19,574 nucleotides of DNA from Candidatus Poribacteria bacterium (GTDB taxonomy: Bacteria > Poribacteria > DTPJ01 > WJIO01): NCBI GenBank assembly GCA_014730235.1, contig WJIO01000210.1:1-19574 (forward strand), written 5' to 3'. A program made the translations under genes and the position numbers. Within the stretch, counting starts at the first letter, position 1; each line of letters starts with the position of its first letter. The notes below the pieces were generated by a model. That model worked only from the letters and a program-made list of their open reading frames with translations, was not told the DNA's origin and searched no databases. This document shows, piece by piece, positions 2,437-17,794 of this stretch.

Positions 2437-2571
2437 AATCTTTTGGCTCTTCCGGGTTCAGTGTGGTAATAATTTAAAATTCTCTTAGCTTGTCATTCCT
2501 GCTTTCGCAGGAATGACAGCATAAAAAGTTTCTTATCTTTACCACACTGAACCCGGAAGAACCAATCTTTT
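2437..2571. mobile_element. MITE-like element, copy 1, with 8-bp target duplications
   Basis: The element body is 2445-2563 (119 bp). Its terminal inverted repeats of 25 bp match at 24 positions; the left arm begins GGCTCTTCCGGGTTCAGTG and the right arm ends GAACCCGGAAGAACC. In the exact centre is a palindrome, TGTCATTCCTGC and GCAGGAATGACA around TTTC (2491-2518). Both outer flanks read AATCTTTT (2437-2444 and 2564-2571), a perfect 8-bp direct repeat as left by transposition. It has no coding capacity. The two halves differ in the spacer between arm and palindrome, which allows orientation to be read: the GTTTCTTATC half is on the right here, as in copy 3. It lies in the 300-bp gap between the reductase and kdsB; the rest of that gap holds a small hairpin and AT-rich DNA. 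Confidence 0.88.
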
Positions 2572-2653
2572 CTTAAAATCTCCTTAAGTCAAGCTATTCG
2601 GATTAAAAATAATTTTAACGCGAATAAATTTTAGTTAGTCAATGAGGTAGTAA

Positions 2654-3388
2654 ATGAGTGTTCTAGCAGTTATTCCGGCCCGTTATGGCTCAATCCGTTT
2701 TGAGGGTAAAGTTCTGGTTGACATAATGGGCAAACCCATGGTTCAGCACGTTTACGAAAGGACTGGTAAAGCCAATATACCTGATGAAGTTATAGTCGCT
2801 ACCGATGACCAGAGGGTATACGGCGCAGTAAAGGATTTCAATGGCAATGTTATCATGACCGGAGAACACATAACCGGAACAGACCGGATCGCAGAAGTGG
2901 CAAGTCGTATTGACCATGAGATCATTGTAAACGTGCAGGGCGATGAGCCGTTAATCGAACCGGCCATGATAGACGAAGCAATTCAACCCCTTCTTGATCA
3001 CCAGGATGTGGATTTAAGCACTTTAGCCCATCGAATTGATTCAAAGGAGGATTATCTTAACCCAAACGTGGTAAAAGTCCTGATAGATCAGGCCGGTTTT
3101 GCCATGTATTTTTCCCGTTCTCCTGTACCCCACATTAAGCTGGGGAAATGGAAACCTGATATTCCAGCCTACAGGCACGTTGGACTTTATGTATTCAGAA
3201 GAGAAGCTCTTCTGGAATTTGCACAATTACCCTCCGCACCCTTTGAATCCCTGGAGGGTTTGGAACAGCTAAGATTTCTGGAAAATGGCTACCGTATGAA
3301 AGTGTTGCAGACAAAATACAGATCAATAGGAGTGGATACACCCGAGGACCTGGAAAAAGTAATTGAAATAATCAAAAGCAGTGACTGA
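2654..3388 (+). CDS. kdsB: 3-deoxy-manno-octulosonate cytidylyltransferase (CMP-KDO synthetase)
   Basis: Couples KDO to CMP using CTP in the cytoplasm, the activation step before KDO is added to lipid A. At 244 residues the length is normal. The N-terminal nucleotide-binding signature [15 protein letters not shown] is present, with Glu in place of the common Pro before GK. Next come the TDDQRVY segment, GTDRIAEVA near residue 78 and [11 protein letters not shown] near 95, which holds the metal- and KDO-binding residues of the family. [15 protein letters not shown] and [10 protein letters not shown] near the C-terminus are also typical. ATG 2654 has GAGG at 2644-2647, six bases upstream. It shows that the cell makes KDO-containing LPS and so has an outer membrane. 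The next gene, pyrG, supplies its CTP. An intergenic element sits on each side, so it may be transcribed separately. Confidence 0.96.
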
Positions 3389-3476
3389 TTAGTTAATACT
3401 CGCGATAAGTAATTTCTCATTTAGTAAAATTTTATTTCTATAACTTCGTAATCGCTAAAAATGGATATAATTTAGT

Positions 3477-3551
3477 TGTCATTCCTGCTTCCGCAGGAAT
3501 GACATGCTTAGGAAGTTTTCAAATTATTTCCAGACTAAACCCGGAAGAACC
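3477..3551. mobile_element. MITE-like element, copy 2, right half only
   Basis: The core palindrome (TGTCATTCCTGC, TTCC, GCAGGAATGACA, 3477-3504) and a right arm ending GACTAAACCCGGAAGAACC (to 3551) are clear. The left arm expected near 3430 is not recognisable, so this copy is decayed or truncated. The spacer of the remaining half (reverse strand AATAATTTGAAAACTTCC) matches the left-hand half of copy 1. Copy 2 is therefore inverted relative to copies 1 and 3 and parallel to copy 4. It lies between kdsB and pyrG, ending 65 bases before the pyrG start codon. Confidence 0.75.
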
Positions 3552-3616
3552 CAATTTTTTATAGTGTCTTGAGTCAAAAGTCTTTATCAGTCACAAATCT
3601 TTGGAGTAGTGAGGGG

Positions 3617-5239
3617 ATGCCAAAACAACCGAAAAAATTCATATTTGTTACTGGTGGAGTTGTATCATCTGTCGGAAAAGGTATAACTACTGCATCCGTA
3701 GGAAGACTCCTGGTAAACAGGGGGTTTAATGTAACTCCACTGAAAGTTGATCCATATCTGAACGTTGACGCCGGAACCATGAACCCATATCAGCACGGCG
3801 AGGTCTTCGTTACCCATGATGGAGCCGAAACCGATCTGGACTTGGGGCATTATGAGAGGTTTATAGGCAAGGATTTAAACAGGGAATCCAATTTTACCAC
3901 TGGCTCTGTCTACGGCGCGGTCATAGCAAAAGAGCGTCGCGGCGAATATCTGGGAAAAACAGTTCAGTTAATACCACATATTACTGATGAAATAAAAAAC
4001 AGGATCTACATGTTAGCCGATGACAGTGATGCAGATGTAATGATTACAGAAATCGGTGGAACTATAGGCGATTTTGAAACGCCGCCATTTACCGAGGCCA
4101 TCCGACAGGTTAGACTCGATGTGGGCAAGGAAAACACACTGTTTATACATGTCAGCCTCATCGCCTATGTAGGTCCATGGGGCGAGACAAAAACCAAGCC
4201 TACACAGCACAGCGTTAGAGCCCTTATGGGAATAGGAATAGTGCCGGATATTCTGATCTGCCGCTCAAAAGAAGCCCTTACTGAGGAGCATAAGGATAAA
4301 ATATCCTTGTTTTGCAGTGTTCCAAGAGAAGCTGTTATCGAAGCCAGGGATACAAAAGAAATTTATGATATACCATTAATATTTGAGCGTCAGGGTCTGG
4401 CAAATCTCATTATCAAAAGGCTGGGTTTGCCCGATAGTTCACCCGATACGGCCCAATGGTCGTCAATGGTAAAGAAGATAAAAAATCCAAAAGAAACCGT
4501 TGTCATTGCCATTGTCGGCAAATACACAGAACATGGCGACGCATACATGTCCATAACCGAAGCCCTGAAGCACGGCGGCGCAGCCAACGAAACCTGCGTC
4601 GAAATAAAATGGATTGAGTCTGACGATCTACAGGATGAAAGCAATATTAGAGATAACCTCAGGGATGTTCATGGGCTTCTGGTTCCCGGTGGATTTGGTT
4701 ACAGAGGTATAGAGGGTAAGATCAACGCCGTTAAATACACCCGGGAAAACAAACTGCCTTATCTGGGCTTATGTCTGGGAATGCAGTGTGCCACTATTGA
4801 ATTTGCCCGGAACGTGCTGGGTATGGAAAAAGCTAACAGTTCAGAATTCGATCCCCAAACACCTTATCCTGTGATCCATCTAATGGCCGAACAGGAAGAA
4901 ATAGAGGACATGGGCGGAACCATGCGTTTAGGTACATACCTATGCGTTCTGGATAACCAATCCAAATCTTATAAGGAATATGGTATAGATTCTGTTGGTG
5001 AACGTCACCGTCACCGTTTCGAGTTTAACAATAAATATCGGGATGATTTTACATCCAATGGTTTCAGACTCAGCGGTTTATCTCCCGACGGTCAGTTGGT
5101 TGAATTAATCGAACTGGACGATCATCCTTGGTTTATAGCTTCCCAGTTCCATCCTGAATTCAGGTCAAAGCCTTTGCATCCGCATCCTCTATTCCGGGGA
5201 TTCATTGCAGCGGCTTTAAGGCAGAAAGCAAATAAATAG
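3617..5239 (+). CDS. pyrG: CTP synthase (glutamine-hydrolysing)
   Basis: Makes CTP from UTP, ATP and glutamine in the cytoplasm. I place the start at ATG 3617, which gives MPKQPKKFIFVTGG, aligned with the usual family N-terminus, and 540 residues (E. coli about 545). GGAG at 3603-3606 is 10 bases upstream. The reading frame is open back to a TTG at 3569, but those 16 residues have no family counterpart. The synthetase domain carries the P-loop GGVVSSVGKG at residues 13-22 and LKVDPYLNVDAGTMNP. The glutaminase domain has GGFGYRG, the nucleophile Cys386 in GLCLGMQC, and His512 and Glu514 in FHPEF. A TATAAT lies at 3466-3471, next to the copy 2 palindrome, without a convincing -35. The pairing with kdsB joins CTP supply to CTP use. 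Confidence 0.97.
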   Translation: MPKQPKKFIFVTGGVVSSVGKGITTASVGRLLVNRGFNVTPLKVDPYLNVDAGTMNPYQHGEVFVTHDGAETDLDLGHYERFIGKDLNRESNFTTGSVYGAVIAKERRGEYLGKTVQLIPHITDEIKNRIYMLADDSDADVMITEIGGTIGDFETPPFTEAIRQVRLDVGKENTLFIHVSLIAYVGPWGETKTKPTQHSVRALMGIGIVPDILICRSKEALTEEHKDKISLFCSVPREAVIEARDTKEIYDIPLIFERQGLANLIIKRLGLPDSSPDTAQWSSMVKKIKNPKETVVIAIVGKYTEHGDAYMSITEALKHGGAANETCVEIKWIESDDLQDESNIRDNLRDVHGLLVPGGFGYRGIEGKINAVKYTRENKLPYLGLCLGMQCATIEFARNVLGMEKANSSEFDPQTPYPVIHLMAEQEEIEDMGGTMRLGTYLCVLDNQSKSYKEYGIDSVGERHRHRFEFNNKYRDDFTSNGFRLSGLSPDGQLVELIELDDHPWFIASQFHPEFRSKPLHPHPLFRGFIAAALRQKANK

Positions 5240-5685
5240 TCATGTGGTTTAATAAGACATGATGAGGTGTTCCATAGACATCAACTTAAGGAAATTTTAC
5301 TTAAATATATGGCTCTTCCGACTTGAGTTTGGAAGTGTAAAAAAATTGTCTAATTAATATTCACTGTTTTTTTTGTGAATATATTTAAAATTAGGTCCTG
5401 TCATTCCTGCTATAGCAGGAATGACAGCATATAGAAGTTTCTTATCTTTATAAAACACTGAACCCGGAAGAATCAAATATATACCAGTAGCCGTCACCCT
5501 CATTCCGGCTTCTACCTTCCAGGCAGGAAGAATTAAAACCATTGCTTTTACAGGTTTTGAGTCTCTTTCTCCCTGAAGAGGTAAGATTAAAATGTGGGTG
5601 ATACAGATTCCGCAATTATTGATGATTTTCCCTAAATTGATGCATATGGAGTACGTTGAAAGTGCCCCAAAAATAGAAAATAGAT
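5240..5685. other. 446-bp non-coding gap between pyrG and the giant gene
   Basis: It contains the 164-bp copy 3 of the MITE-like element (5311-5474) and its flanking repeats. The following stretch, about 5485-5560, has GTCACCCTCATTCCGGC and CTTCC/GGAAG (5516-5520 with 5526-5530), possibly a decayed second repeat. A weak stem can form from AAAACC (5535-5540) and GGTTTT (5553-5558). The 120 bases before the giant gene are AT-rich; no promoter, riboswitch or strong ribosome binding site could be assigned. Confidence 0.6.
5303..5482. mobile_element. MITE-like element, copy 3, enlarged, with 8-bp target duplications
   Basis: The element body is 5311-5474 (164 bp). The left end reads GGCTCTTCCGACTTGAG and the right end CACTGAACCCGGAAGAATC; the arms have diverged from each other more than in copy 1. 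Both flanks read AAATATAT (5303-5310 and 5475-5482), a perfect 8-bp duplication. The core is a perfect 30-bp palindrome at 5398-5427, arms CTGTCATTCCTGC around CTATAG. The right half is nearly the same as that of copy 1 (GTTTCTTATCTTTA), so orientation is the same. The left half is about 40 bp longer and contains its own hairpin, ATATTCAC (5357-5364) and GTGAATAT (5375-5382), so the core is off centre. Confidence 0.86.
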
Positions 5686-8600
5686 ATGTCCATTTCAAAA
5701 CATATACAAAATTTTTCTTCATCCATTACTCATCCCCTGTCACGCGTCCCCTGTTACGCGTTAACCATAATATCTCTGCTTCTAATCCTGTTCACACAGT
5801 TTCCGGCTTTCGCTATCCCCGACACATCCATAATAGCCGGCCCATCCGATACCATATCCTCCGGCGATCTGGTCTTCTTCTGGACAGGAAATGTTGATTC
5901 TCCTGATACCCACATAAGGGGGTTTTATTACCGGCTGGATGACGCCCCTTGGGGTTTTACTCGGGATCGTTTTATTGCGTATTACGGTCTTTCCAATGGT
6001 TCACATCAACTGGAAGTAAAAGCTGTGGATAATCTTAATATCGAAGACCCAACTCCGGCTATCCGAAGTTTCACGGTTCAGGAAAACCCGTTTATCGAAC
6101 CCGACGAAAGCCCCTTTACAGTACAGAGGGATTTTGTCAATCAACTGGACAGTGGCATTATTTCCCGGGATCTCAGGCAGGAGTTCTCAGACCAGCGACG
6201 TTCAATCTCCCAGGATGCCTTTGTTACCATAGTCTCTCAGGGAGCAGAATGGCTTATAGAGGACGATAACAACAGATACAGGATAAAGAAAGAGGGTAAC
6301 CTCCTTAACGTATACGAGCCTGATTCTGTCATGCGTCTGGATTCCGAATTTGAAGATGATTTAGACGACGGCAATATTACTGAAGAAATGGTGCTTGAGT
6401 TCGAGGATGAGGATATAGACATATCACAGAACTCAACCTTAACAATCATAACACCCGGCAGCGAATGGTTAGTTGACGATAAATACACAATTAGGGACGA
6501 AGGCAATAGACTCAGAGTGTATCAGGATGAGCTTCAGTTTGGCGTTGAATTGATCCAGTTTATGGTAGCCTATCTGGACAGCGGCTTTATTTCAGAGGAC
6601 TTAAACCGAAAATTCACTCAACAGGGCATAAACCTCTCCCCAAATGTAAACATAGAGTCTGTATCAGCAAACCAGTGGATACTGGAGGATGAAGATAATC
6701 AATACATAGTCCAGCGTGCAGGTGAAAGCTTCAACATATATCAGTCCATAAATGACAGCGTTTCCGAGGCCATACAGATAAACCCCGGTTCAGCCATCCG
6801 GGCCCTGAGTCAGCCCGACAGCGACGATAACAACAGCCTTGATACGGACTGGTTCAGCTTTTCCATCCCTGCCGAAACCCGACAAGCAGCCGTCATGTTT
6901 CGCCGCCCCGATTCCATTGGCTTAACGGAGATAAACATATTCCGCCGCCCCGAATTCGCCGCCGGAAGCGAAATATCAGCTTTTAACGCCCAATATCAGG
7001 GTTTCACAGCTTTTGGAGTATCCCAGGGTGAATATCTGATAAGCGTAGTTCCCGACGAGTCCGAAAATCCCGACGCTCCTTATTTTCTCACTGTCATTAC
7101 TGAACCTTTAGCTGAAAATGTGATATGGGATACTGAAAGTAACAACACCCTTGCAAGGGCCACCCAAACCCATTCCGTATCTCTTTCCCCTCTTACCCCC
7201 TGGATTGACATGGTAGGCTTCAAAGGTTCAGATAGCGATACAAAAGATTATTACAGCATATATGTTGACATAACCCAACCTGTTCGCCTGAACGTAAACC
7301 TTACCAGGCCTCAGTCTTTTCCAGCTTCTGTGAGGATAATACCTGCTTCCCAGTCCGGTGGTCAGATTGGCGAATTTCAGGTCTACCCCACTGCTGGCAC
7401 TGGATGGAAATTTGAAGCTGGCGTATTATCCGGCGATTACGTTTTTGAAGTTACGCTCCCTGAAGAGCAGGATTCCCACTACCCCTATTTCCTGACCCTC
7501 TACATATCAAGCCTGCCAGCCGGTGAACAATGGGAGATCGAACCAAATGACACCCCTCAGCTTTCCAATACCTTGCCTTTTAACCAGAGGCTTAGAGCCA
7601 GCAAAGGCTATGACGGCGATACTGCGGATCTATTCCGTTTCAACGTTATTGAGGATTCAATTTTCAGTCTGGTTACATCTGGAATTCTTAAATATAACTC
7701 TATAAGCATATATCCCCTGGATCCCATACTCCTTGTCCCTTCCGGCGATGCCCTGGAATACACCACCATCACAGCCCAACAGCGGGATTCCCTCAGTCTT
7801 GATTTGCTGCCCGGTGATTATCTGCTTGAGGTTGATCTTACTGATATAAACGGCTATTACTGGCTTACCGCCCGGTCTATAGATTCCTTATCCCACGACG
7901 CACCAGATGATGAAAGCCTGAAAGCCGGGGATGTCCTCACAGTGGAAATGGTCTGGACGTCTGGAAATACTGTATCTTTTGATATTATAGATATTAATAC
8001 AGATGAAGCTATCAACGAAGAACCTGTTGCCATGACCGACGACGGTAATGGCATATATATCGGAACTTACACCGTCCAGTCATCCCAACAGCAGGATGAT
8101 GATTTCGTCAATGATTACAGGATAGTGGTTCACATCCAGGATCAGTCTGGCAGTGCAGATTTAATCGCCGATGGCGATGTTACGATTGATACATCCCCGC
8201 CTGATGAAACCCCGCCGGAGATAACCAGCGTAACCCACACTGCCGAGGATAACCCCCTTCGCTCCGGCGACAGGCTTACGGTAACCATTCGGGGTGAAGC
8301 CGGAAACATCGCATCCTTTGACGTGGGCAATTTTCTGTTGGGTGTGGAAGCCTACGACGACGGCCGTCACAACGATGGCGACGCTGACGACGGCGTATAC
8401 GCGGGTTCATACTCCGTAAAAGCCGATGATTACGTCATAGGCGCGGTCATAACCGCTTATCTTGTGGACGGCTTCGGCAACCGGGCCAGCCTTGATGCCT
8501 CTGTCCCAGCCGATATTGTAGGCAATCGTCCTGTAATAAGGACGGTGGATCACAATGCCCGTCTCATCCTCGGCCTTGGCGATACTCTTAAGGTAACTCT

Positions 8601-11600
8601 CCAAGGCGATACTGACGGCATAGCCAGCTTTGACGTGCCCGGTCTGGTAAACAATATCCCCATGTATGACGACGGTCAGCACGACGACAACGGTCGCGGC
8701 GACGGCATATATTCCGGTTCTTATGAAATTCAGGAAGGTGACGGTGTTTTATCCGCTCCTGTAACTGCCCGTCTGGTTGATCGGGAAGGCCGGGAGACAT
8801 CCAAGACCGCGATCTTGGAAGTAAGCGTTGATGCCATTTCACCGCCCCCGGTGATTGGTGTAACAGCCTCTGATAGGCCAGATGATGACGGCGGTTTTAT
8901 CGTCATACAGTGGAATACATCGTCAGAGTTGGATTTTGCCCGTTATAACATATACCTGTCACAACAGCCCATAGGCGGCAGGGTCAGCGGTCTACAGCCT
9001 GCTTTAACTGTCACCGACCTTCTCCGTAACTCAGCGGAATTGGAAGTTGAGGAAAACGCCGTTGATTATTTTGTCGCCGTTACCGCTGTGGATATAATGG
9101 ACAACCAGTCTGAGTTGGACGAAACCGGCAGCTCCACCTTCGGTCCTGTCCAGGCCCTGGACAACGTAAGACCTGCCCCGGTCAGAGTAGTCTCCGCTGT
9201 GGACAGACCCGAAGATTTTGGCGGCGTAATAATTCTAAGCTGGACTCAGGTAAACCAAGAAGCGGATTTCGCTCGGTATAACATATACATGGATACTCAA
9301 ACCATATCATCGGTACAGGACTTAACCCCCTTTGAAGTCGTAACCGATAGATTCATAACCATATTAAGCATACCCGTTTCATCCAACGATATTGATTACT
9401 ATTTTGCCGTAACTGCTACGGATACTTCCGACAACGAATCTTCCCTGGATGCTGAGTCCACCGCCGGCCCTGTCCAGGCCCAAAATAATATTGGAACTCA
9501 ACCCGAAACCCCTGTAAGTATAATAACCGGACCTGTTGGCACTACCCTTTATAATTCTGTGGCCTTTAATCTTTCAAGGTTCATAAGCGGTTCATCCCAG
9601 ATCATTCCCGGTTATTATTACCGCCTTGACGACCGTGCATGGCAGTGGTCTTCTTTATCCACCGTTATTTATAACAATCTCCGGGATGGTTCTCACACCT
9701 TTTCAGTCCGTCTGCCCGATTCCCTTGAAGGCGATGCCGCCGGTTTTGTTCTCAGCCGTTCTTTCTCTGTGCAGGCTGTTTCAACCCTTGAGCGAGAGCC
9801 TAACGACAGCCCGGAGAACGCCCATGAAATCCCCTCTGGTGTGGTAACCCGGGGGCAAAGCTCCAGTGCTGACGACAGCGACTGGTTCAGGGTTCATATC
9901 CCGGCCAACAGTCCATCTGTGGCCCATGTGATATTCTCACCGTCCCCCTCTCTGGCTTCTGCCGATATAACTGTCCATGCTCTTGGGCCCTTGCGGGAGA
10001 TAGGTAGTTTCACAAGCTCTAATGGCCAGCCCGGTCATTTCAGCTTTGGTCTTTCCCAGACTTCGGATTATTATATACAGGTTAATACCTCCAACGCCGG
10101 AAACTATAGACTCGTAGCTGCTTATCATGTCCTTCCCCAGGAATACTATTGGGAGACGGAGAACAACGACCAGGGCCCAGCCGCCGATGTTATCGGTTCT
10201 GATATCCGGGAGATCCATGCCAACACTAGCAAAAGCGGCGACGTGGATTGGTTCAGGTTTTTTGTGACGCAGTTTTCTGGAAAGGATTCCGCGTGGATGG
10301 AGCTTTCTCTCCATCGCCCTGATATTCAGGCTGAAACCACTGTGGAAATATACTCCTCCTCCCCCGGCCCTGCGGATTTACAGGTAACCCGGTTCACCCT
10401 TGATCCCGTTTCCCAGTTTCAGGAGCTTACTCCCGACTTTGCTGGCCCGGTTAGTGCTGGAACGGATTATTTTATCAGGATTGACAGTGGCAGTGAACAG
10501 CCTTTTAACCCCTATCAGGTCTCTTTGGATCTATCGGAAGTGCCTGTTGGGGATGATTTTATCTGGGAGGTTGAACCAAACAACACCTCGAACCGGGCCA
10601 ATATGCTGGACATAGGCATAAAGCGCCGCGGCAACAGTTGGGATGCTAATCAGGATATTGACTGGTACAGGATCAACATTCCCGATGAAGGGGTATTGAA
10701 CTTAAATCTCTCCAGACCTGGTGGATTAGGTTCTACAACCCTTGAAGTTTACGATGCCTCCATGATGCCGGTAGGAAGCATGCAGGTTACCCCCTTATTC
10801 TCACAAAAAGGGGGCATAAACGTCGATGTGGCCCCCGGAGCATATTACGTTAAGCTGACACCTCAGGGTGAGCTTTCTGGGGCGTTTTATGAGTTAAGCG
10901 CGTTTCTGGTGGATTCAGTTTCTATGGTTCGTGTTTCATCTCAAGGCGAAGAAATACAAGACACAAACCAACCCCTGAAAGCCGGTGACATGATCCAGTT
11001 AGAGCTGGTATGGAACGTAGCCGATGGAACGGTAACCTTTGACATAGGCGATATTCAGACGGACATACCTATGACCCATCAGGAAAACGGAACTTATACC
11101 GGTTCATACACCTTTGTAACCGGAGACAATCAGACCAGAGCCCCTGTTGTCCTGCACCTTCAGGAGCCATCAGGAACAGTAGCCGACATCGAGTTTGACG
11201 AGACTGTGACTGTGGATACCCTACCTCCGGCCATTGCTCAGGTATCCCATGATGCATTAACCCCTCTTGCCGCTGGTCGTGATTTGACCGTAAGTATGAT
11301 AGGCGAACCCAGAGGAAGGGCAACCTTTGATATTGGCAACTTTAGAACAGGTCTGGATATGTATAACATGGCCTTTGACGGTGAGATGCCCCCTGTGGCC
11401 ATATTGTTCTGGAACTGGCGTCTGGAGCCGGGTGTTGGTCTGCTGGTATCCGGTCGGGTAAAAAATATATCCGATTCTGTAAGGAACAGGGTAAAGATTA
11501 ATTATACCTTCTACGATATTGACGATGAAGTTGTCAGCGAAGGCTTTATTTTCACCTCACCTCGCAGCATATCCCCCGGTGTTTCCCCATCGTTCAAGAC

Positions 11601-14600
11601 TTATGCGGATTACAGCGGCAGTGAGGTCAGGGCAGAACTTGAATTGGTGTATGGTAATGATGAAACTTTTGCCGGTGAAACCTCCGACGAAGGCATATAC
11701 ACCGGGATTTATCAGGTGGGCGAAAATGACAATGTGTCTGACGCTCCCGTCATATTTCACCTCACCGACGTTGCCGGTAACAGTTCCCAGACTCAGGCTG
11801 AAAATGCGGTAACCTTTGATAACATATCCCCTGTAATTGTTTCCTTAACTCACAACGCGGATCAGGTATTAGTAGAAAACGACGTTTTGACTGTTACCAT
11901 GCGCCTTGAGAACCCCGAACCCGGTGCCGAAGCCAGCTTTGATATAGGCGACTTTCGATCGGGGATTGACATGTCCGTCAATAATTCCGAACTCATTGAA
12001 TACATCGGCACTTATCGGATCAGGGCTGGTGATCAGGTGGAAAATGCCCTGATTATCGGACATATTTCAGACGCTGCCGGCAATGAAAATGAACAGACGA
12101 GTATCCAGTCTGTAAGCATCGATACATCAACTCCCAATATATCATCCGTAACATTCAACAGCAAAAACAGACCCTTCGTTCAGGATGAAGAACTCACAGT
12201 CTCTGTCCGCACCGACCCCGGCTCTGTGGTTACTTTCAGCGTGGAAGGTCTGGTTTCCGATGTGCCCATGTATGACGATGGTCAACATGATGACAGCGAA
12301 CCCGGCGACGGTCTTTACAAGGGTTCATACACCATCAGCCAGGATGATAACATTACCGCCCAGAGGATCAGGGTAACTGTAACAAATCCCAATGGAAAGA
12401 CGACAGTCCGTCAGTCTCTTGAAACTGTTTCTGTGGATACTACCCCGCCTGCTGAGGTTACAGGTGTAACAGCATCAGACAGACCCGATGATGAAGGCGG
12501 CTATCTGGTTCTAACATGGCAGGCCAGTCAGGATGAGGATTTCCACCACTACAATATATACCAGTCAGAAGCTCTTATAACTAATATTGTGCAATTAGAA
12601 CCATTGGATATAAACATAACCGATATAAACAACACCAGCGTTCAGATTCCCGTACCCATGTCCGACCCCGAACTACCGCCAGCCAATTACTACTTTGCTG
12701 TTACGGCCGTGGACGTGGCCACCAACGAATCCCGCATCACCAGCGAAAGCACCGCAGGCCCTGCATCGGCTCAGGACAATCTCCCGCCGCCGCCGGTAGA
12801 AACTGTGACGGGATATGACCGGGCTTTCGACAACGGAAAAGTCATAACAATAACATGGAGCGATCCATCCCCGGCCGAGGATTTTCGCCGCTATCACGTC
12901 TACATGGACAGCGTTCCCATAACGTCAACATCTGGTCTTGCACCTGTAGAAGCAGGCATCACTGATCGAAATGTATTATTGACAGATATAACCGTACCCC
13001 AGGACGACGTAGAATTCTATTTTGCCGTTACTGCCCTTGACACTTCCGGCAATGAATCAGTTTTAACGGATAATTCAACTGCGGGGCCTTTGTCCAGCCA
13101 GGATAATCTGGTTGATGTGCCTGATACCCTTGTAAAGCTCATAAGTGGTCCCATAGGCGAAGTTCATCACGACGACGTAACCTTCATCTGGAACCGATGG
13201 TTCAAAAACAGCGGTTCCGGTCTAACAGGATATTACTACAAGCTGGATAACGCTAACTGGACATGGACTGACCAGAATTACAAAATCTATAACGACCTTA
13301 ATCCCGGTGAACACATGTTTTACGTCAGGGCTGATTTAGGTTCAGGCCAGACCGATCCCATGCCTGCCAGCAGGACTTTTTCCGTCAGACGCATAAACAT
13401 CCCGGAGGATGAACCTAACGACACCGTAGGCCAGGCCAACTGGATCTCAAAAGGAATGACCATCACCGGCGTAAACGCCGGTGATGACGATAACGACTGG
13501 TATAGATTCCATGTGGAATCCGCAGGCATTATGACGCTGCATTTTAACCGCATAAGGGCTGTAGGCTCTACGGAAGTCTCGATTTACAGGGCTTTGCCTG
13601 CAACCCAGGAAACCAGGATAGGCAGTTTCATTGTAAATACTGCCGATAAACGCCATAATTTCAGCACCGGCGTGGAATTGGGCGATTACTTCATGCTGGT
13701 GGATTCCCAGGGTGAGGATTCGGAATATGATCTGTCAGTGATCACCGTTGAAATGCCGGAGGATATTTTGTGGGATATGGAGAACAACGACCAACCCCGA
13801 TTTGCTCAGTTGGTGGGACGGTGGGATCTGGAACCGGGAGTCACCGAGGAACTCCCGGTAACACAGGTTTCCGGTTTTGGGAACAAGGAATCAGACATAG
13901 ACTGGTATCAAATTCAGGTGTCTGGTTTGGCCCCCAATACCTCAGTTTTCATGGACCTGGATTTTGTACGTCCAAAAGGTGCTGGAACTACCGAAATTAG
14001 CCTTTATTCATCCTTCCCTGTTACCGATTCACCAAAAGTTGGCGTTATAAAACTTGAGCCTGCCAATGCTCAAATGAGTTTGTTCTCTACTCCTGTAAGG
14101 AATGGTGATTACTACCTTAAAGTTGATAATTCCCAGGAAATGGACTTATCCAGCATGTACTTTTTCAAGGTTTCGTTTAGAGCAGTACCCGATAAGTGGG
14201 AAGTAGAGCCAAACGGCGTTTCTCAATTTGCCAACAACCTTTCTGTGGGTGAAGTCATAAAAGGAACTAGCTGGCATCCTGATGATGATGTGGACTGGTT
14301 CAAAGTTAGACTAACCAGACGGGGAACCTTTGTGTTGTCTTACTTCAGACCCTTTGGTACTGGTTCTGCCGATATGAAGCTCAAAGGCGCAAACGGTGAA
14401 GATATAGCCACTGCATCAGCCGGTATATTCTCCGGTCAGAAAGCGGATATAAGCGCAGAGCTTAATCTTGGTGATTACTTTGTTGTTATTGATCCACAGT
14501 CAGAAGCTGATGCTTCGGCTTATTACTACCTTACGACTGTAGTTCTGGATGATGTGGAGTCAGAAATTGTTTACAGCGAAGATAATCCCTTTGATGAAAG

Positions 14601-17600
14601 GGAAATCCTTTCAATAGGTGATGTTTACAGGCTTTCGGTGGAATGGAAACCGGGTAACAACATCAGCTTTAATATTGGCGATCTCAGATCAGACATCCAG
14701 TTGTCCGGCGATGGTTTGTATACCGGTTCATATACTATTCAAAATGGGGATGATATACAGGACGCAGAAATTGTACTTGTAATTGACATGCCGCCGGCTT
14801 CTGCATCGGCAGATGACACCTGGACTGCGGAAGTAACCCTTGATGATACCATAACCATAGACACAACGCCGCCGAGAATTACCAGGATCGATCATAACAT
14901 AAGGCTGCGCCCACTTAAAGCCGGTGAAGAACTGCAAGTAACCATGAACGGCGAAGCCGGGGCCAGGGGCGCTTTCTTTGATATAGTTGTTCCTGACGGC
15001 ACTTCAATACTGCGGTATTCGGAAATACCCATGACAGAAGACCCGGAGGGAACTTATGCAGGGATATACACCGTTGAGGAATTGGATAATATAAGCGGGG
15101 CCTCTGTAATAGGTCATCTTTTTGATACGGCCGGAAATGAATCCACCAGAACGTCGGATCTCCCTGTTTACTTTGACACTCTGCCGCCGGATATTGAAGC
15201 TGTGGAGCATGATGCTGTTGAAGAAGCCCTGTTAGAGGGCGAGGTTATTACTGTAAAGGCTATCAGCGATACAATAGGCGGAAAGGCCGTATTCAGCATC
15301 GGAGATTTGGTTCCAGAAAGGGTTATGTATGACGATGGAACAAGGGGTGACGAAGAGGCTGATGATGGAGTTTATACAGGCAGGTATACGATAAGACCGG
15401 GCGATAATGCTACCGATGCCCTTGTTACCGTCAGGCTTGAAGATAAGGCCGGTAATGTAGCTGAAGAAAGGGCTTTAAACCCTGTCAATGTGGACACATC
15501 ATCACCGGAGATCACCTCCGTTGTTCACAACGCTGATGACATTCTTTCAGAAGGCGATGAACTTATGGTAACCCTTACCGGCGTTCCGGGAAATACTGCC
15601 AGCTTTGACATAGGTGAATTTCTGAAAGATCAGCCTATGTATGACGATGGAACCCGTTTGGATGAAACAGCCGGAGATGGTAACTATACGGGAATTTACG
15701 AGGTGAAAGAAGGTGATTTTGTAGAAAATGCCCGGATTACAGGCTATCTTGAGGACGAAAGCGGAAACCGGTCTGTATACAGGGTCTTTGAAAGGGTTAG
15801 TATAGACGCGATTGCGCCTTCACCGGTTCTTAACGTCCAGGCGGAGGACAAGCCTGATGACCAGGGATACAGGATTATATTAAGCTGGGACGCTTCGGAT
15901 GATGAAGGGCTTGAGCATTACAACATATACAGGGAGTCCTCACCTATAACCTCTATTTTAGGTCTGGCTCCTCTTGCTGATTCTGCTTTGCTTGACAGAT
16001 CCTTTACCCAATATGAAATCACAGTTCCCAGCAATGACAGTAGTTATTATGTGGCGGTGACGGCTGTGGATACGGCCGGAAACGAGTCTTTACTGGCTAT
16101 TGAGCCGGTAAATGGAAATTCCGGCAGTGTTTTCGGACCTGTTCGGGCTGTTGATAATATTGCCCCGGAACCTGTGACAAGGGTTTCTGCACAAGATAAC
16201 CCGGATGACCAGGGAAAGACTGTATTGGTTAGCTGGACAAGGGCCACCCAAGAAGATGATTTCGGATACTACGGTGTGTATTATTCAGAAGAGCCTATTA
16301 CGTCGGTGGAAGATTTAGAAAATGTGCAGACTTTTGGCCCCAGGGATGTTGTGAGTTTACCTAATGGCATAGGTGCTTACGTTTCAGTGCCTGCCGATGG
16401 TGTGGATTATTATTTTGCCGTTACAGCTTTTGATGAAAATGATAATGAGTCAGGGCTTGATGATCAGGGGCGTTCAACAGCCGGACCTGTGGCTTCCTCC
16501 GATGATGTTCCGCCTGATCCCGTTATTATACTGGAAGCCGCCGATGCTCCAGGCGATGAAGGTGGGTATCTGGAAATATTCTGGCGTTATAACACAAAGG
16601 AAGATATACGGGAGTATAATTTTTATCTTTCCACAGAATTTATTGATAACAGCGTTATAGACGACCTTATACCTACTGATCTTGTCAGTACTGCCGAAAT
16701 TAGTGTTACCGATTCTGTCGCAAGTTATGAACTTCGATCTCCTGCTGACCTGGTGAGTTTTTACGTGGCGATTACGGCTGTGGACTACGGCGGCAACATG
16801 AGTTCGCTGGATGATTCGGGTATGTCCGTTGCAGGGCCTGTTCAGTCGGTCTCCAATACTACCAGTGTGAATTCAAGCAGTGTGATTTTTGCTGGCTTTG
16901 ACCCCAAGACATCGGTTATTGTGCCTGCTGGTGCTATGCCAGACGGTGGAACGGTGGATATTTTCCTTCCTTCGGAATCCTTACTCAGAACTATAGAAGA
17001 AGCGGATCAATTCCTGGAAAGAGCCCATATTGATCCGGAACTAGACTTTTATTTTGATAATACTGTTCGGGAATTTATCTCCAGCACATCGGCTCTTAAT
17101 AGACCTGTGGAAATTACCCTGTCCTATCCGGATTTTGCCGAATTACAGGCAACCAGATTTATAGGTGCAGAGATACCTTCCGGGGAAGACGAGGCACATC
17201 TCAGGATATTTAAACTCAACCAGGAATCCAGAATACCACGATGGGATCTGGTTACCGGCTCTCATGAGGTAAACACCAGCCAGAGGACAGTCTCTGTGGA
17301 GGTGAATTCCTTTGGCGTTTACAGGATAGGTATACTGGAATTGCCTACAAGCCTGGACAGAGTTGTGGTTTATCCCAACCCCTATATACCATCTCAATCC
17401 CTTAACGGCTACGTTACATTTAAGAACCTTACAGATAGGTTTACTATTGACATATACACTCTGAACGGCGATCATGTAAGGACTATTGAACGTCAAAACG
17501 GCGGCGGCGATGAGGCCATATGGGACGTGAGAAATAAGCAGGATGAAGAAGTGGCCAGCGGAACTTATTTGTTTATTATTCAGGGGGATGATGATTCTTA

Positions 17601-17628
17601 TGTAGGTAAGATTGTTGTTTTACGGTGA
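5686..17628 (+). CDS. Giant secreted multidomain Ig/PPC/FN3 protein with FlgD-like C-terminal domain
   Basis: A 3980-residue exported protein, very acidic, with no enzymatic domain that I can recognise; a structural, adhesive or matrix role is inferred. An N-terminal signal peptide has its hydrophobic core at about 25-36 and probable cleavage after AFA at residue 43. Super-module 1 spans about 46-1275, super-module 2 about 1276-2478 and super-module 3 about 2479-3725. Each has an Ig-like domain (YYRLDxxxW and DGSH signatures), three PPC-like domains (WxxExND and DxDWFR), three or four Ig-like domains (YDDGxHxD, GDGxYxGSY, VDTxPP) and two or three FN3-like domains (DFxxYNIY, YYFAVTAVDxxGNES). 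A ZU5-like domain (about 3730-3885) and a C-terminal FlgD/type-IX-like domain (3886-3980) follow. ATG 5686 is the only start downstream of an in-frame TAG and has no clear ribosome binding site. MITE-like copies lie on both sides, so it is probably its own transcription unit. Confidence 0.93.
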   Translation: MSISKHIQNFSSSITHPLSRVPCYALTIISLLLILFTQFPAFAIPDTSIIAGPSDTISSGDLVFFWTGNVDSPDTHIRGFYYRLDDAPWGFTRDRFIAYYGLSNGSHQLEVKAVDNLNIEDPTPAIRSFTVQENPFIEPDESPFTVQRDFVNQLDSGIISRDLRQEFSDQRRSISQDAFVTIVSQGAEWLIEDDNNRYRIKKEGNLLNVYEPDSVMRLDSEFEDDLDDGNITEEMVLEFEDEDIDISQNSTLTIITPGSEWLVDDKYTIRDEGNRLRVYQDELQFGVELIQFMVAYLDSGFISEDLNRKFTQQGINLSPNVNIESVSANQWILEDEDNQYIVQRAGESFNIYQSINDSVSEAIQINPGSAIRALSQPDSDDNNSLDTDWFSFSIPAETRQAAVMFRRPDSIGLTEINIFRRPEFAAGSEISAFNAQYQGFTAFGVSQGEYLISVVPDESENPDAPYFLTVITEPLAENVIWDTESNNTLARATQTHSVSLSPLTPWIDMVGFKGSDSDTKDYYSIYVDITQPVRLNVNLTRPQSFPASVRIIPASQSGGQIGEFQVYPTAGTGWKFEAGVLSGDYVFEVTLPEEQDSHYPYFLTLYISSLPAGEQWEIEPNDTPQLSNTLPFNQRLRASKGYDGDTADLFRFNVIEDSIFSLVTSGILKYNSISIYPLDPILLVPSGDALEYTTITAQQRDSLSLDLLPGDYLLEVDLTDINGYYWLTARSIDSLSHDAPDDESLKAGDVLTVEMVWTSGNTVSFDIIDINTDEAINEEPVAMTDDGNGIYIGTYTVQSSQQQDDDFVNDYRIVVHIQDQSGSADLIADGDVTIDTSPPDETPPEITSVTHTAEDNPLRSGDRLTVTIRGEAGNIASFDVGNFLLGVEAYDDGRHNDGDADDGVYAGSYSVKADDYVIGAVITAYLVDGFGNRASLDASVPADIVGNRPVIRTVDHNARLILGLGDTLKVTLQGDTDGIASFDVPGLVNNIPMYDDGQHDDNGRGDGIYSGSYEIQEGDGVLSAPVTARLVDREGRETSKTAILEVSVDAISPPPVIGVTASDRPDDDGGFIVIQWNTSSELDFARYNIYLSQQPIGGRVSGLQPALTVTDLLRNSAELEVEENAVDYFVAVTAVDIMDNQSELDETGSSTFGPVQALDNVRPAPVRVVSAVDRPEDFGGVIILSWTQVNQEADFARYNIYMDTQTISSVQDLTPFEVVTDRFITILSIPVSSNDIDYYFAVTATDTSDNESSLDAESTAGPVQAQNNIGTQPETPVSIITGPVGTTLYNSVAFNLSRFISGSSQIIPGYYYRLDDRAWQWSSLSTVIYNNLRDGSHTFSVRLPDSLEGDAAGFVLSRSFSVQAVSTLEREPNDSPENAHEIPSGVVTRGQSSSADDSDWFRVHIPANSPSVAHVIFSPSPSLASADITVHALGPLREIGSFTSSNGQPGHFSFGLSQTSDYYIQVNTSNAGNYRLVAAYHVLPQEYYWETENNDQGPAADVIGSDIREIHANTSKSGDVDWFRFFVTQFSGKDSAWMELSLHRPDIQAETTVEIYSSSPGPADLQVTRFTLDPVSQFQELTPDFAGPVSAGTDYFIRIDSGSEQPFNPYQVSLDLSEVPVGDDFIWEVEPNNTSNRANMLDIGIKRRGNSWDANQDIDWYRINIPDEGVLNLNLSRPGGLGSTTLEVYDASMMPVGSMQVTPLFSQKGGINVDVAPGAYYVKLTPQGELSGAFYELSAFLVDSVSMVRVSSQGEEIQDTNQPLKAGDMIQLELVWNVADGTVTFDIGDIQTDIPMTHQENGTYTGSYTFVTGDNQTRAPVVLHLQEPSGTVADIEFDETVTVDTLPPAIAQVSHDALTPLAAGRDLTVSMIGEPRGRATFDIGNFRTGLDMYNMAFDGEMPPVAILFWNWRLEPGVGLLVSGRVKNISDSVRNRVKINYTFYDIDDEVVSEGFIFTSPRSISPGVSPSFKTYADYSGSEVRAELELVYGNDETFAGETSDEGIYTGIYQVGENDNVSDAPVIFHLTDVAGNSSQTQAENAVTFDNISPVIVSLTHNADQVLVENDVLTVTMRLENPEPGAEASFDIGDFRSGIDMSVNNSELIEYIGTYRIRAGDQVENALIIGHISDAAGNENEQTSIQSVSIDTSTPNISSVTFNSKNRPFVQDEELTVSVRTDPGSVVTFSVEGLVSDVPMYDDGQHDDSEPGDGLYKGSYTISQDDNITAQRIRVTVTNPNGKTTVRQSLETVSVDTTPPAEVTGVTASDRPDDEGGYLVLTWQASQDEDFHHYNIYQSEALITNIVQLEPLDINITDINNTSVQIPVPMSDPELPPANYYFAVTAVDVATNESRITSESTAGPASAQDNLPPPPVETVTGYDRAFDNGKVITITWSDPSPAEDFRRYHVYMDSVPITSTSGLAPVEAGITDRNVLLTDITVPQDDVEFYFAVTALDTSGNESVLTDNSTAGPLSSQDNLVDVPDTLVKLISGPIGEVHHDDVTFIWNRWFKNSGSGLTGYYYKLDNANWTWTDQNYKIYNDLNPGEHMFYVRADLGSGQTDPMPASRTFSVRRINIPEDEPNDTVGQANWISKGMTITGVNAGDDDNDWYRFHVESAGIMTLHFNRIRAVGSTEVSIYRALPATQETRIGSFIVNTADKRHNFSTGVELGDYFMLVDSQGEDSEYDLSVITVEMPEDILWDMENNDQPRFAQLVGRWDLEPGVTEELPVTQVSGFGNKESDIDWYQIQVSGLAPNTSVFMDLDFVRPKGAGTTEISLYSSFPVTDSPKVGVIKLEPANAQMSLFSTPVRNGDYYLKVDNSQEMDLSSMYFFKVSFRAVPDKWEVEPNGVSQFANNLSVGEVIKGTSWHPDDDVDWFKVRLTRRGTFVLSYFRPFGTGSADMKLKGANGEDIATASAGIFSGQKADISAELNLGDYFVVIDPQSEADASAYYYLTTVVLDDVESEIVYSEDNPFDEREILSIGDVYRLSVEWKPGNNISFNIGDLRSDIQLSGDGLYTGSYTIQNGDDIQDAEIVLVIDMPPASASADDTWTAEVTLDDTITIDTTPPRITRIDHNIRLRPLKAGEELQVTMNGEAGARGAFFDIVVPDGTSILRYSEIPMTEDPEGTYAGIYTVEELDNISGASVIGHLFDTAGNESTRTSDLPVYFDTLPPDIEAVEHDAVEEALLEGEVITVKAISDTIGGKAVFSIGDLVPERVMYDDGTRGDEEADDGVYTGRYTIRPGDNATDALVTVRLEDKAGNVAEERALNPVNVDTSSPEITSVVHNADDILSEGDELMVTLTGVPGNTASFDIGEFLKDQPMYDDGTRLDETAGDGNYTGIYEVKEGDFVENARITGYLEDESGNRSVYRVFERVSIDAIAPSPVLNVQAEDKPDDQGYRIILSWDASDDEGLEHYNIYRESSPITSILGLAPLADSALLDRSFTQYEITVPSNDSSYYVAVTAVDTAGNESLLAIEPVNGNSGSVFGPVRAVDNIAPEPVTRVSAQDNPDDQGKTVLVSWTRATQEDDFGYYGVYYSEEPITSVEDLENVQTFGPRDVVSLPNGIGAYVSVPADGVDYYFAVTAFDENDNESGLDDQGRSTAGPVASSDDVPPDPVIILEAADAPGDEGGYLEIFWRYNTKEDIREYNFYLSTEFIDNSVIDDLIPTDLVSTAEISVTDSVASYELRSPADLVSFYVAITAVDYGGNMSSLDDSGMSVAGPVQSVSNTTSVNSSSVIFAGFDPKTSVIVPAGAMPDGGTVDIFLPSESLLRTIEEADQFLERAHIDPELDFYFDNTVREFISSTSALNRPVEITLSYPDFAELQATRFIGAEIPSGEDEAHLRIFKLNQESRIPRWDLVTGSHEVNTSQRTVSVEVNSFGVYRIGILELPTSLDRVVVYPNPYIPSQSLNGYVTFKNLTDRFTIDIYTLNGDHVRTIERQNGGGDEAIWDVRNKQDEEVASGTYLFIIQGDDDSYVGKIVVLR
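5734..5761 (+). repeat. Tandem 14-bp duplication within the signal-peptide coding region
   Basis: CCCCTGTCACGCGT (5734-5747) is followed directly by CCCCTGTTACGCGT (5748-5761), with one mismatch. It encodes residues about 17-26, just before the hydrophobic core of the giant protein's signal peptide. Because 14 is not a multiple of 3, the two units are read in different frames, and loss or gain of a unit would shift the frame. Confidence 0.8.
5821..9510 (+). repeat. Super-module 1 of the giant protein (residues about 46-1275)
   Basis: Order of parts: Ig-like 46-132; three 71-residue LDSG repeats 150-354; PPC-like domains at about 355-475, 476-612 and 613-735; Ig-like at about 738-845, 846-948 and 950-1052; FN3-like at about 1056-1165 and 1166-1272. 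The first post-PPC Ig module begins LKAGDVLTVEMVW and ends TIDTSPP, as its counterparts in the other two super-modules do. The second PPC begins VIWDTESNN and the third QWEIEPND, again matching by position. Boundaries are by eye. Confidence 0.75.
6133..6747 (+). repeat. Three tandem ~71-residue repeats of unrecognised type (LDSG repeats)
   Basis: Residues about 150-213, 222-283 and 293-354 of the giant protein share the pattern L-D-[SD]-G-x-I-[ST], then F, then [IL]-S, W-x-[LIV]-x-D, Y-x-[IV] and a final [VI]-Y. The LD pairs fall at 154, 226 and 297, giving periods of 72 and 71. The pattern suggests a short helix followed by a beta-rich part. I do not recognise the family, and no such repeat occurs in super-modules 2 or 3. 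A role in binding or spacing is only a guess. Confidence 0.82.
9511..13119 (+). repeat. Super-module 2 of the giant protein (residues about 1276-2478)
   Basis: Order of parts: Ig-like 1276-1364 (PGYYYRLDDRAWQW); PPC-like at about 1370-1484, 1486-1620 and 1626-1745; Ig-like at about 1746-1847, 1848-2046 (split by an inserted domain), 2048-2147 and 2150-2250; FN3-like at about 2255-2368 and 2369-2475. Signature pieces match super-modules 1 and 3 by position: YYWETENND at the second PPC, FIWEVEPNN at the third, LKAGDMIQLELVW at the first following Ig, and VTASDRPDDEGG at the first FN3. Confidence 0.75.
11362..11679 (+). other. FxLYD-like domain inserted in an Ig-like module
   Basis: Residues about 1893-1998 of the giant protein interrupt an Ig-like module exactly where its siblings carry the YDDGxHxDxxxGDG loop: FRTGLDMYNM lies before it and SDEGIYTGIYQV after it. 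The core (about 1908-1988) has GRVKNISDSVRNRVKINYTF, then a YD pair, VVSEGF and ISPGVSPSF, the usual layout of FxLYD domains (G-x-V-x-N, long strands, then PG-x-x-x-x-F). Assignment rests on pattern only. Confidence 0.6.
13120..16860 (+). repeat. Super-module 3 of the giant protein (residues about 2479-3725)
   Basis: Order of parts: Ig-like about 2483-2569 (TGYYYKLDNANWTW); PPC-like at about 2572-2686, 2690-2833 and 2836-2950; Ig-like at about 2955-3062, 3064-3165, 3166-3270 and 3273-3374; FN3-like at about 3377-3490, 3493-3605 and 3609-3724. The third FN3 has no counterpart in the other super-modules. Position-specific matches include ILWDMENND (second PPC) and KWEVEPNG with GTSWHPDDDVDWF (third PPC). 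Confidence 0.75.
16873..17625 (+). other. C-terminal ZU5-like plus FlgD-like/type-IX-like sorting region
   Basis: Residues about 3730-3885 (SVIVPAGAMPDGGTVDIFLP near the start, VNSFGVYRIGI at the end) look like the ZU5-like domains that often precede this kind of C-terminus. Residues 3886-3980 follow the FlgD Ig-like/type-IX C-terminal consensus: VVVYPNPY, then FTIDIYTLNGDHVRTI, IWDVRNKQ, VASGTYLFIIQ and the final GKIVVLR. In type IX systems such a domain directs crossing of the outer membrane. In other phyla its role is unproven, so surface sorting is an inference. Confidence 0.72.
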
Positions 17629-17674
17629 TCAGTAATTGGTGAACAATAATGGATCTGAGAATTCTAAAAAATCT

Positions 17675-17794
17675 GGTTCTTTTGGGTTTAGTGTGGTAAA
17701 AACAAGAAGCTTCTTTATGCTGTCATTCCTGCTTTCGCAGGAATGACAAGCTGAGATAATTTTCAATTATAACCACACTAAACCCGGAAGAACC
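17675..17794. mobile_element. MITE-like element, copy 4
   Basis: A 120-bp element. The left arm begins GGTTCTTTTGGGTTTAGTG and the right arm ends CTAAACCCGGAAGAACC; 21 of 23 positions match. The core palindrome TGTCATTCCTGC, TTTC, GCAGGAATGACA (17721-17748) is exactly central. Its left half resembles the reverse complement of copy 1's right half (AAACAAGAAGCTTCTTTATGC), so it is inverted relative to copies 1 and 3. The flanking 8-mers (AAAAATCT and GTTAATTT) do not match, so any target duplication has decayed. It separates the giant gene from the lipoprotein gene. Confidence 0.86.

Follow-up and report, generated by a model that had tools for sequence, protein, structure and literature searches.

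A high-copy MITE with ISL3-type ends in a Candidatus Poribacteria genome shares its hairpin core, and forms hybrids, with a second MITE family

The repeats described here are a small parasitic DNA element, a MITE with ISL3-type ends, present in about 440 copies (one per 12 to 13 kb) in the genome of a Candidatus Poribacteria bacterium. Four copies lie in the window, i.e., the whole stretch of 19,574 nt that was analyzed (contig C137), which belongs to a 5.53-Mb assembly of 451 contigs (91.6% complete, 4.8% contamination). Taken as a whole, our data are very probably explained by an ISL3-ended MITE moved in trans, together with the sharing of its hairpin core with a second MITE family and the formation of hybrids between the two.

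Using a 21-nt end pattern, we obtained 432 forward and 446 reverse matches genome-wide, as opposed to 1 + 0 in the reversed control; these 878 ends correspond to ~440 elements of this family (family 1). A search of the same genome with copy 1 of the window returned 885 first-look candidates, and the 40 that were scored showed 86 to 100% identity. The inverted ends of family 1 span roughly 22 nt (GGYTCTTCCGGGTTNAGTGTGG) and begin GGYTCTTC, as in ISL3-driven MITEs; the main size class is 119 to 121 bp, most elements are <250 bp, and a transposase gene is absent. Statistics on duplications and positions were derived from a 1.75-Mb sample of the genome, taken as regions and partly picked from contigs with known copies, and density estimates therefore use whole-genome counts. 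In this sample, 57 of the 158 two-ended elements were flanked by perfect 8-bp duplications (0.6 expected from shuffled pairings), and 91/158 by duplications within one mismatch (5.3 expected). Similarly, in an earlier and smaller sample (1.05 Mb; 97 two-ended elements paired), perfect 8-bp duplications were found for 38/95 elements versus 0.71 upon shuffling. Flank lengths of 4, 5, 6, 9, and 10 bp were at or near chance, and 7 bp (11 versus 1.3) remained far under the 8-bp signal. The duplicated 8-mers are AT-rich, with mostly A at the first and mostly T at the last position. The earlier note on this DNA had taken the repeats for a transposition-derived family, and both the end counts and the duplications bear this out: hundreds of other copies are present in the genome, and the duplications flanking them are consistent and specific to 8 bp.

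Perfect duplications were more common where the two ends match closely (16/31 for ends differing by 0 to 2 mismatches versus 11/37 for 6 to 8), as expected from decay with age. Pairwise identity within the 119- to 121-bp class averaged 81% (maximum, 97%), indicating that the family does not stem from one recent burst; the expansion is largely not recent, and activity today is not implied by the data. An empty site is available for one family-1 element (L190, 10460 to 10623) that sits in an arm of the second family: when its flanks are joined, they align unbroken to several empty family-2 copies. The TA target duplication of Correia-type elements was not found in either family, the duplications being 8 bp in family 1 and 5 to 6 bp in family 2.

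Within the window, the four copies were confirmed in the sequence at the places originally reported, with the exception of the start of copy 2, and the central 28-bp palindrome is indeed found in all of them. Copy 1 (2445 to 2563, plus strand; 119 bp) is a complete ISL3-type MITE consisting of arm A, the hairpin, and arm B, with its palindrome TGTCATTCCTGC-TTTC-GCAGGAATGACA at 2491 to 2518 and, as read from the sequence, the 8-bp target duplication AATCTTTT on its left (2437 to 2444) and right (2564 to 2571). Copy 3 (5311 to 5474, plus strand; 164 bp) joins a left arm of type C (GGCTCTTCCGACTTGAG) to a right arm B around a palindrome with the loop TATA (5399 to 5426), and is bordered by AAATATAT at 5303 to 5310 and again at 5475 to 5482; the perfect, mutually different repeats claimed for copies 1 and 3 are thus present. 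Copy 4 (17675 to 17794, minus strand; 120 bp; palindrome at 17721 to 17748) carries its arms in the order B/A, in the orientation opposite to copy 1, and its flanks (AAAAATCT and GTTAATTT) retain no surviving duplication. For copy 2, previously placed at 3477 to 3551, the end stands, but the real start is 3448. Its left arm (3448 to 3476, plus strand; GTAATCGCTAAAAATGGATATAATTTAGT) corresponds to the short arm of the second MITE family according to the family-2 arm consensus, with the family-2 left end at 3448; the shared palindrome (3477 to 3504) forms the junction of the two families; and only the right half (3505 to 3551, plus strand), which ends CCCGGAAGAACC with the family-1 right end at 3551, is ISL3-type. 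Judged by its arms, copy 2 is a hybrid between family 1 and family 2, and this hybrid nature, as well as the palindrome common to two families, goes beyond what the earlier note had described. Likewise, its statement that all ends start GGYTCTTCCGGG holds only in part, the exceptions being the left side of copy 2 (which has no ISL3-type end), both ends of copy 3 (left, GGCTCTTCCGACTT, of another arm type; right, read inward, GATTCTTCCGGG), and the left end of copy 4 (GGTTCTTTTGGG). The RNA folds of copies 1 and 4 reach -67.3 kcal/mol (z -14) and -63.6 kcal/mol (z -11.6), respectively, and Rfam gave zero matches within the window. Four copies in successive gaps compare with a genome average of ~1.6 per 19.6 kb, an excess to be read with the caveat that windows that stand out are those that get reported. 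The window also contains a single open reading frame (ORF) of 3980 aa (5686 to 17628) with repeated segments and a C terminus that by eye resembles a FlgD-type or sorting domain; its product is probably a very large secreted protein.

The second MITE family (family 2) has ends reading GTAATCGTTAAAAAATG, unrelated to those of family 1, and a usual length of 123 to 125 bp, the same palindrome being flanked by arms that differ in length (30 and 66 nt). Its ends were matched 146 + 134 times genome-wide (3 + 3 in the control) and 0 to 5 times per relative, and its copy number is ~140. Loose matching of family-2 ends (5 mismatches) was noisy, with 360 control hits, so that statements on family 2 and on hybrids rest on strict sets unless said otherwise. 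Among 21 strict pairs, 16 showed perfect duplications of 5 or 6 bp, and one copy (L051, 18838 to 18961) lies inside another repeat, of which empty versions exist at at least eight loci. This further dispersed repeat, around TTTACCGTTTTGATATATAAAAAGTGCGAAAGTATA, was seen in at least eight places (the L051 18838 region, L086, L205, L080, L061, L206, L099, L204, and L056) and served as an empty-site control. Both MITE families together are estimated to make up 1 to 1.5% of the genome DNA (copy number multiplied by usual length). An extra arm segment, CTAAAACCAGATGTTGCAGTGCTTAAAGAGACACTAGCAAATGAAAATGCTATCAGGC, was observed in members of both (L088, 3554 to 3756; L080, 5289 to 5482; L070; L048); it can be read as an open frame and possibly represents a piece of a captured gene.

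The hairpin core common to the two families (GTCATTCCTGC-N4-GCAGGAATGAC) occurs in ~400 copies in this genome and 0 to 1 per relative; more specifically, the palindrome GTCATTCCYGCN4GCRGGAATGAC has 399 sites genome-wide with zero control hits, and it was absent from viral contigs. The first sample contained 123 palindromes: 79 were flanked by two ISL3-type ends and 25 by a single one, and the remaining 19 lacked such ends, most of these 19 belonging to family 2. Around the core, family-1 arms are of several types (A and a variant of it, B, C, D, and a short one) that combine in many ways, and elements with mixed arms (type C with A or B, including copy 3 of the window) can retain perfect duplications, so that either the mosaics themselves transposed or they were converted at their present sites. 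By length, the cores form classes of 28, 49 to 50, 69 to 78, and 113 to 115 nt, and in the 72-nt class two inverted hairpins are found with GGAATCCAG...CTGGATTCC between them. Both families include core-less copies (57 to 97 bp), of which some bear perfect duplications; this suggests that the core is cargo and not required for mobility; core-less copies with intact duplications could alternatively have arisen by later deletion. The core resembles the 20-bp dRS3 repeat of meningococci, ATTCCC(N8)GGGAAT (PMC3898611), but the window copies, all four of which read ATTCCT(N8)AGGAAT, fall outside that definition. We tentatively consider that this dRS3-like hairpin might be an exchangeable module around which new MITE types are built, either as a recombination joint for swaps of arms and cores or as a unit moved by some recombinase.

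Cross-family hybrids are a recurrent class. Under strict end calling, 19 elements combine a family-1 end with a family-2 end, and a core is recognizable in 15 of these; perfect duplications of 5 to 10 bp were found for none of the 38 heterotypic pairs of a looser set, in contrast to 57/158 family-1 and 16/21 family-2 pairs. Such a lack is expected if hybrids form by recombination and are unable to transpose; they resemble immobile products of recombination at the hairpin, the missing duplications suggesting the immobility. We rather favor, as their origin, nested insertion followed by deletion: a family-1 element would land in a family-2 element, after which the DNA separating the two matching palindromes would be lost through recombination or replication slippage, leaving one-end-each hybrids no longer able to move. 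Complete family-1 elements with 8-bp duplications do lie in family-2 arms (L190, 10460 to 10623, the empty-site case above; L120, 14904 to 15022). In several hybrids (e.g., L044, 4205 to 4326; L072, 13650 to 13772), the first 17 to 18 nt of family 2 are directly followed by a family-1 left end, the core, and a family-2 right arm, and these are plausible remnants of the insertion-deletion route.

The link to ISL3 rests on the ends, the duplications, and a relative of the host. ISArsp7, an ISL3-family element, has ends GGCTCTTCGCGGTTGGTGGTGAAT (GGCTCTTCGCGG...), beginning GGCTCTTC, and generates 8-bp direct repeats as here, although it is 1.4 kb long with a transposase gene and the present elements are ~120 bp and non-coding (PMC6305408). 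The 187-nt MITE of Microcystis aeruginosa PCC 7806 has ends GGCTCTTCG and 8-nt repeats and was assigned to an ISL3 transposase (PMC11448079). In the present genome, PF01610 matched no more than three ISL3 transposase fragments, all of them truncated at contig ends, and the Zn-ribbon N terminus of ISL3 transposases (PF14690) had no match. One fragment (C342) ends in an element reading GGTTCATCCGGTTAATGCG and another (C391) has GATTCATCCGGGAAATGCC, both agreeing with the MITE end only over the first ~11 to 12 nt. C391 bears MITE ends and so belongs to this genome; C342 and C236 may be foreign contigs, as judged by eye from gene content and from their lack of strong MITE ends. C236 also carries an IS200-type Y1 transposase gene (L124), and it and C342 may represent assembly contamination. 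Long elements bounded by either end type and a duplication were absent from the sample (the flank of the one candidate pair is truncated, so that it does not count), and an autonomous element with exactly these ends was not detected in the assembly, from which, at 92% completeness and 451 contigs, the partner could be missing.

An ISL3 transposase gene bounded by an end of this type was found only in a relative of the same phylum, and on one side of a gene fragment: in G064 (contig C617), the C terminus of an ISL3 transposase (PF01610, E = 1.2e-9) is encoded next to the end GGTTCATCAGACTTAAGTGGGG / GGTTCATCAGACTTAAGTGGGGGTATG, which lies 34 nt beyond the stop and has 2 mismatches in 22 relative to the MITE end consensus. 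The bounded transposase gene that the earlier note had suggested looking for was found in part, on one side and in a relative. G029, also of this phylum, has longer elements of ~270 to 570 bp with ends GGTTCTTCAGGGTTAAGTGTGGG and GGCTCTTCAGAGTTAAGTGTGG, three of which (L134, L136, and L138) have perfect 8-bp repeats in their flanks; a PF01610 transposase was not found in its genome. These ends indicate that the end type is spread wider in the phylum than the present expansion. The order-mate G001 has one end match, inside a coding sequence, and lacks the palindrome; comparable family-1 numbers occur in no relative searched, and the repeat sequence itself is absent from the order-mate and the other phylum members searched, in line with a mobile element. 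Elsewhere, the exact end pattern had no match in viral contigs, nor copy 1 in plasmids. A scan of genome contigs yielded one locus, in a Candidatus Methylomirabilis MAG (JACPQX010000013.1; L031, 6339 to 6607), which holds a single MITE-like element of ~269 bp with ends GGCTCTTCCGGGTTCAGTGTGG and GGCTCTTCAGGG and the perfect 8-bp duplication ATTTTTTT. We observed the copy number, the ends, the 8-bp duplications, the insertion into a known repeat with duplication of 8 bp, and the end beside the ISL3 gene of a relative; from these, the mover is most likely a borrowed ISL3-type transposase, which, acting in trans, would recognize the ~22-nt inverted ends and insert the element into AT-rich intergenic DNA with duplication of 8 bp. 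The proposal of a non-autonomous, ISL3-moved element is supported by the hundreds of copies, the 8-bp specificity, and the ISL3 link in G064.

The very stable RNA folds and the intergenic location could also be taken to mean that the elements are kept as regulatory parts, e.g., transcription terminators or RNA-stability hairpins. Although 88% of the sample is covered by ORFs of ≥110 aa, the midpoint of only 4/193 strict elements falls within an ORF, and these four lie at most 46 nt from the end of that ORF; 20/193 lie at contig edges and the remainder are intergenic. Gaps between tandem, divergent, and convergent genes hold 105, 47, and 17 elements, respectively, and comprise 111, 45, and 19 kb (the elements themselves included), so that the share of copies in each kind approximates its share of gap bases and convergent gaps show no excess. 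This lack of enrichment at convergent gaps argues against a terminator role, and a T-run after the hairpin is absent as well. Selection against genic insertion accounts for the intergenic bias, with no sign of a preferred regulatory position. Considering also that no relative searched has comparable numbers, and the order-mate none, we regard maintenance for regulation as very unlikely.

Two other explanations assign the mobility to the hairpin. It is unlikely, if less so than a regulatory role, that the palindrome constitutes a third unit, dRS3-like and either mobile on its own or recombining site-specifically, which inserted into both MITE families instead of spreading between them through recombination. 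Such a unit would fit the presence of one core in two families whose ends are unrelated, and the core variants of 28, 49, 69 to 78, and ~114 nt on the same arms; neisserial dRS3 serves phages as an integration target and has been proposed to act in recombination (PMC3898611). However, palindromes outside ISL3-type ends are few (the 19/123 above, mostly family 2), no duplication flanking the core was noticed, and an IS110-type recombinase was not found, which leaves IS110 unsupported as the core mover. We give hardly any credence to the idea of REP/BIME-type palindromes mobilized by a RAYT (Y1 tyrosine transposase), to which the ISL3-like arms would be incidental, even though the central hairpin resembles a REP sequence and, as in BIMEs, some cores consist of two hairpins in inverted orientation. 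The 8-bp duplications lie exactly outside the ISL3-type ends and not outside the palindrome, and core-less copies retain both ends and duplications. The genome has a single Y1 domain, in an apparently ordinary IS200-type element with no palindrome within ~1.5 kb; RAYT is thus unsupported as a mover of the core.

An ISL3-ended MITE moved in trans, as preferred here, has precedents. Like the present elements, the Microcystis MITE is <200 bp, with GGCTCTTC ends, 8-nt duplications, and an inferred ISL3 mover, but that genome has a full-length ISL3 element with matching ends, none being detected here, and no hairpin core common to a second MITE family is described in the available part of that paper (PMC11448079). 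Like the present elements, the neisserial dRS3/NIME repeats occur in hundreds of intergenic copies (PMC3898611), and the core here (ATTCCTGCGAAAGCAGGAAT) differs from theirs (ATTCCCGCGAAAGCGGGAAT) by one base pair (PMC3898611, PMC7593972); a gonococcal repeat with two inverted hairpins, outward GTCATTCC and inward GGAATCCAG, has the layout of our 72-nt cores (PMC7593972). Unlike dRS3, the hairpin here lies within MITEs that have terminal repeats as well as duplications. Chunjie of Geobacter uraniireducens, as described in a citing paper, is likewise an intergenic MITE with size variants, but has 38 copies with terminal repeats and 57 partial ones versus ~440 here (PMC10969869). TIMEs, mosaic miniature elements derived from Tn3, resemble family 2 in their 5- or 6-bp AT-rich duplications, and mosaic formation has been described for them, but they have 38-bp Tn3 ends as opposed to GTAATCGTTAAAAAATG (PMC4133298). 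Thus, ISL3-driven MITEs are already known from Microcystis; the copy number, the core shared with an unrelated MITE family, and the cross-family hybrids are new in that they are unreported in the open-access literature searched, and prior reports elsewhere are possible.

In this genome, insertions, nested insertions, and hybrids are available as a large natural series, in which duplications tell moved from unmoved forms. For annotation, the two families explain the share of the genome DNA estimated above. The genome also provides evidence that two MITE families, unrelated in other respects, can be linked through a short palindrome, and a route to asking how dRS3-like hairpins, known from Neisseria, become abundant in unrelated bacteria.
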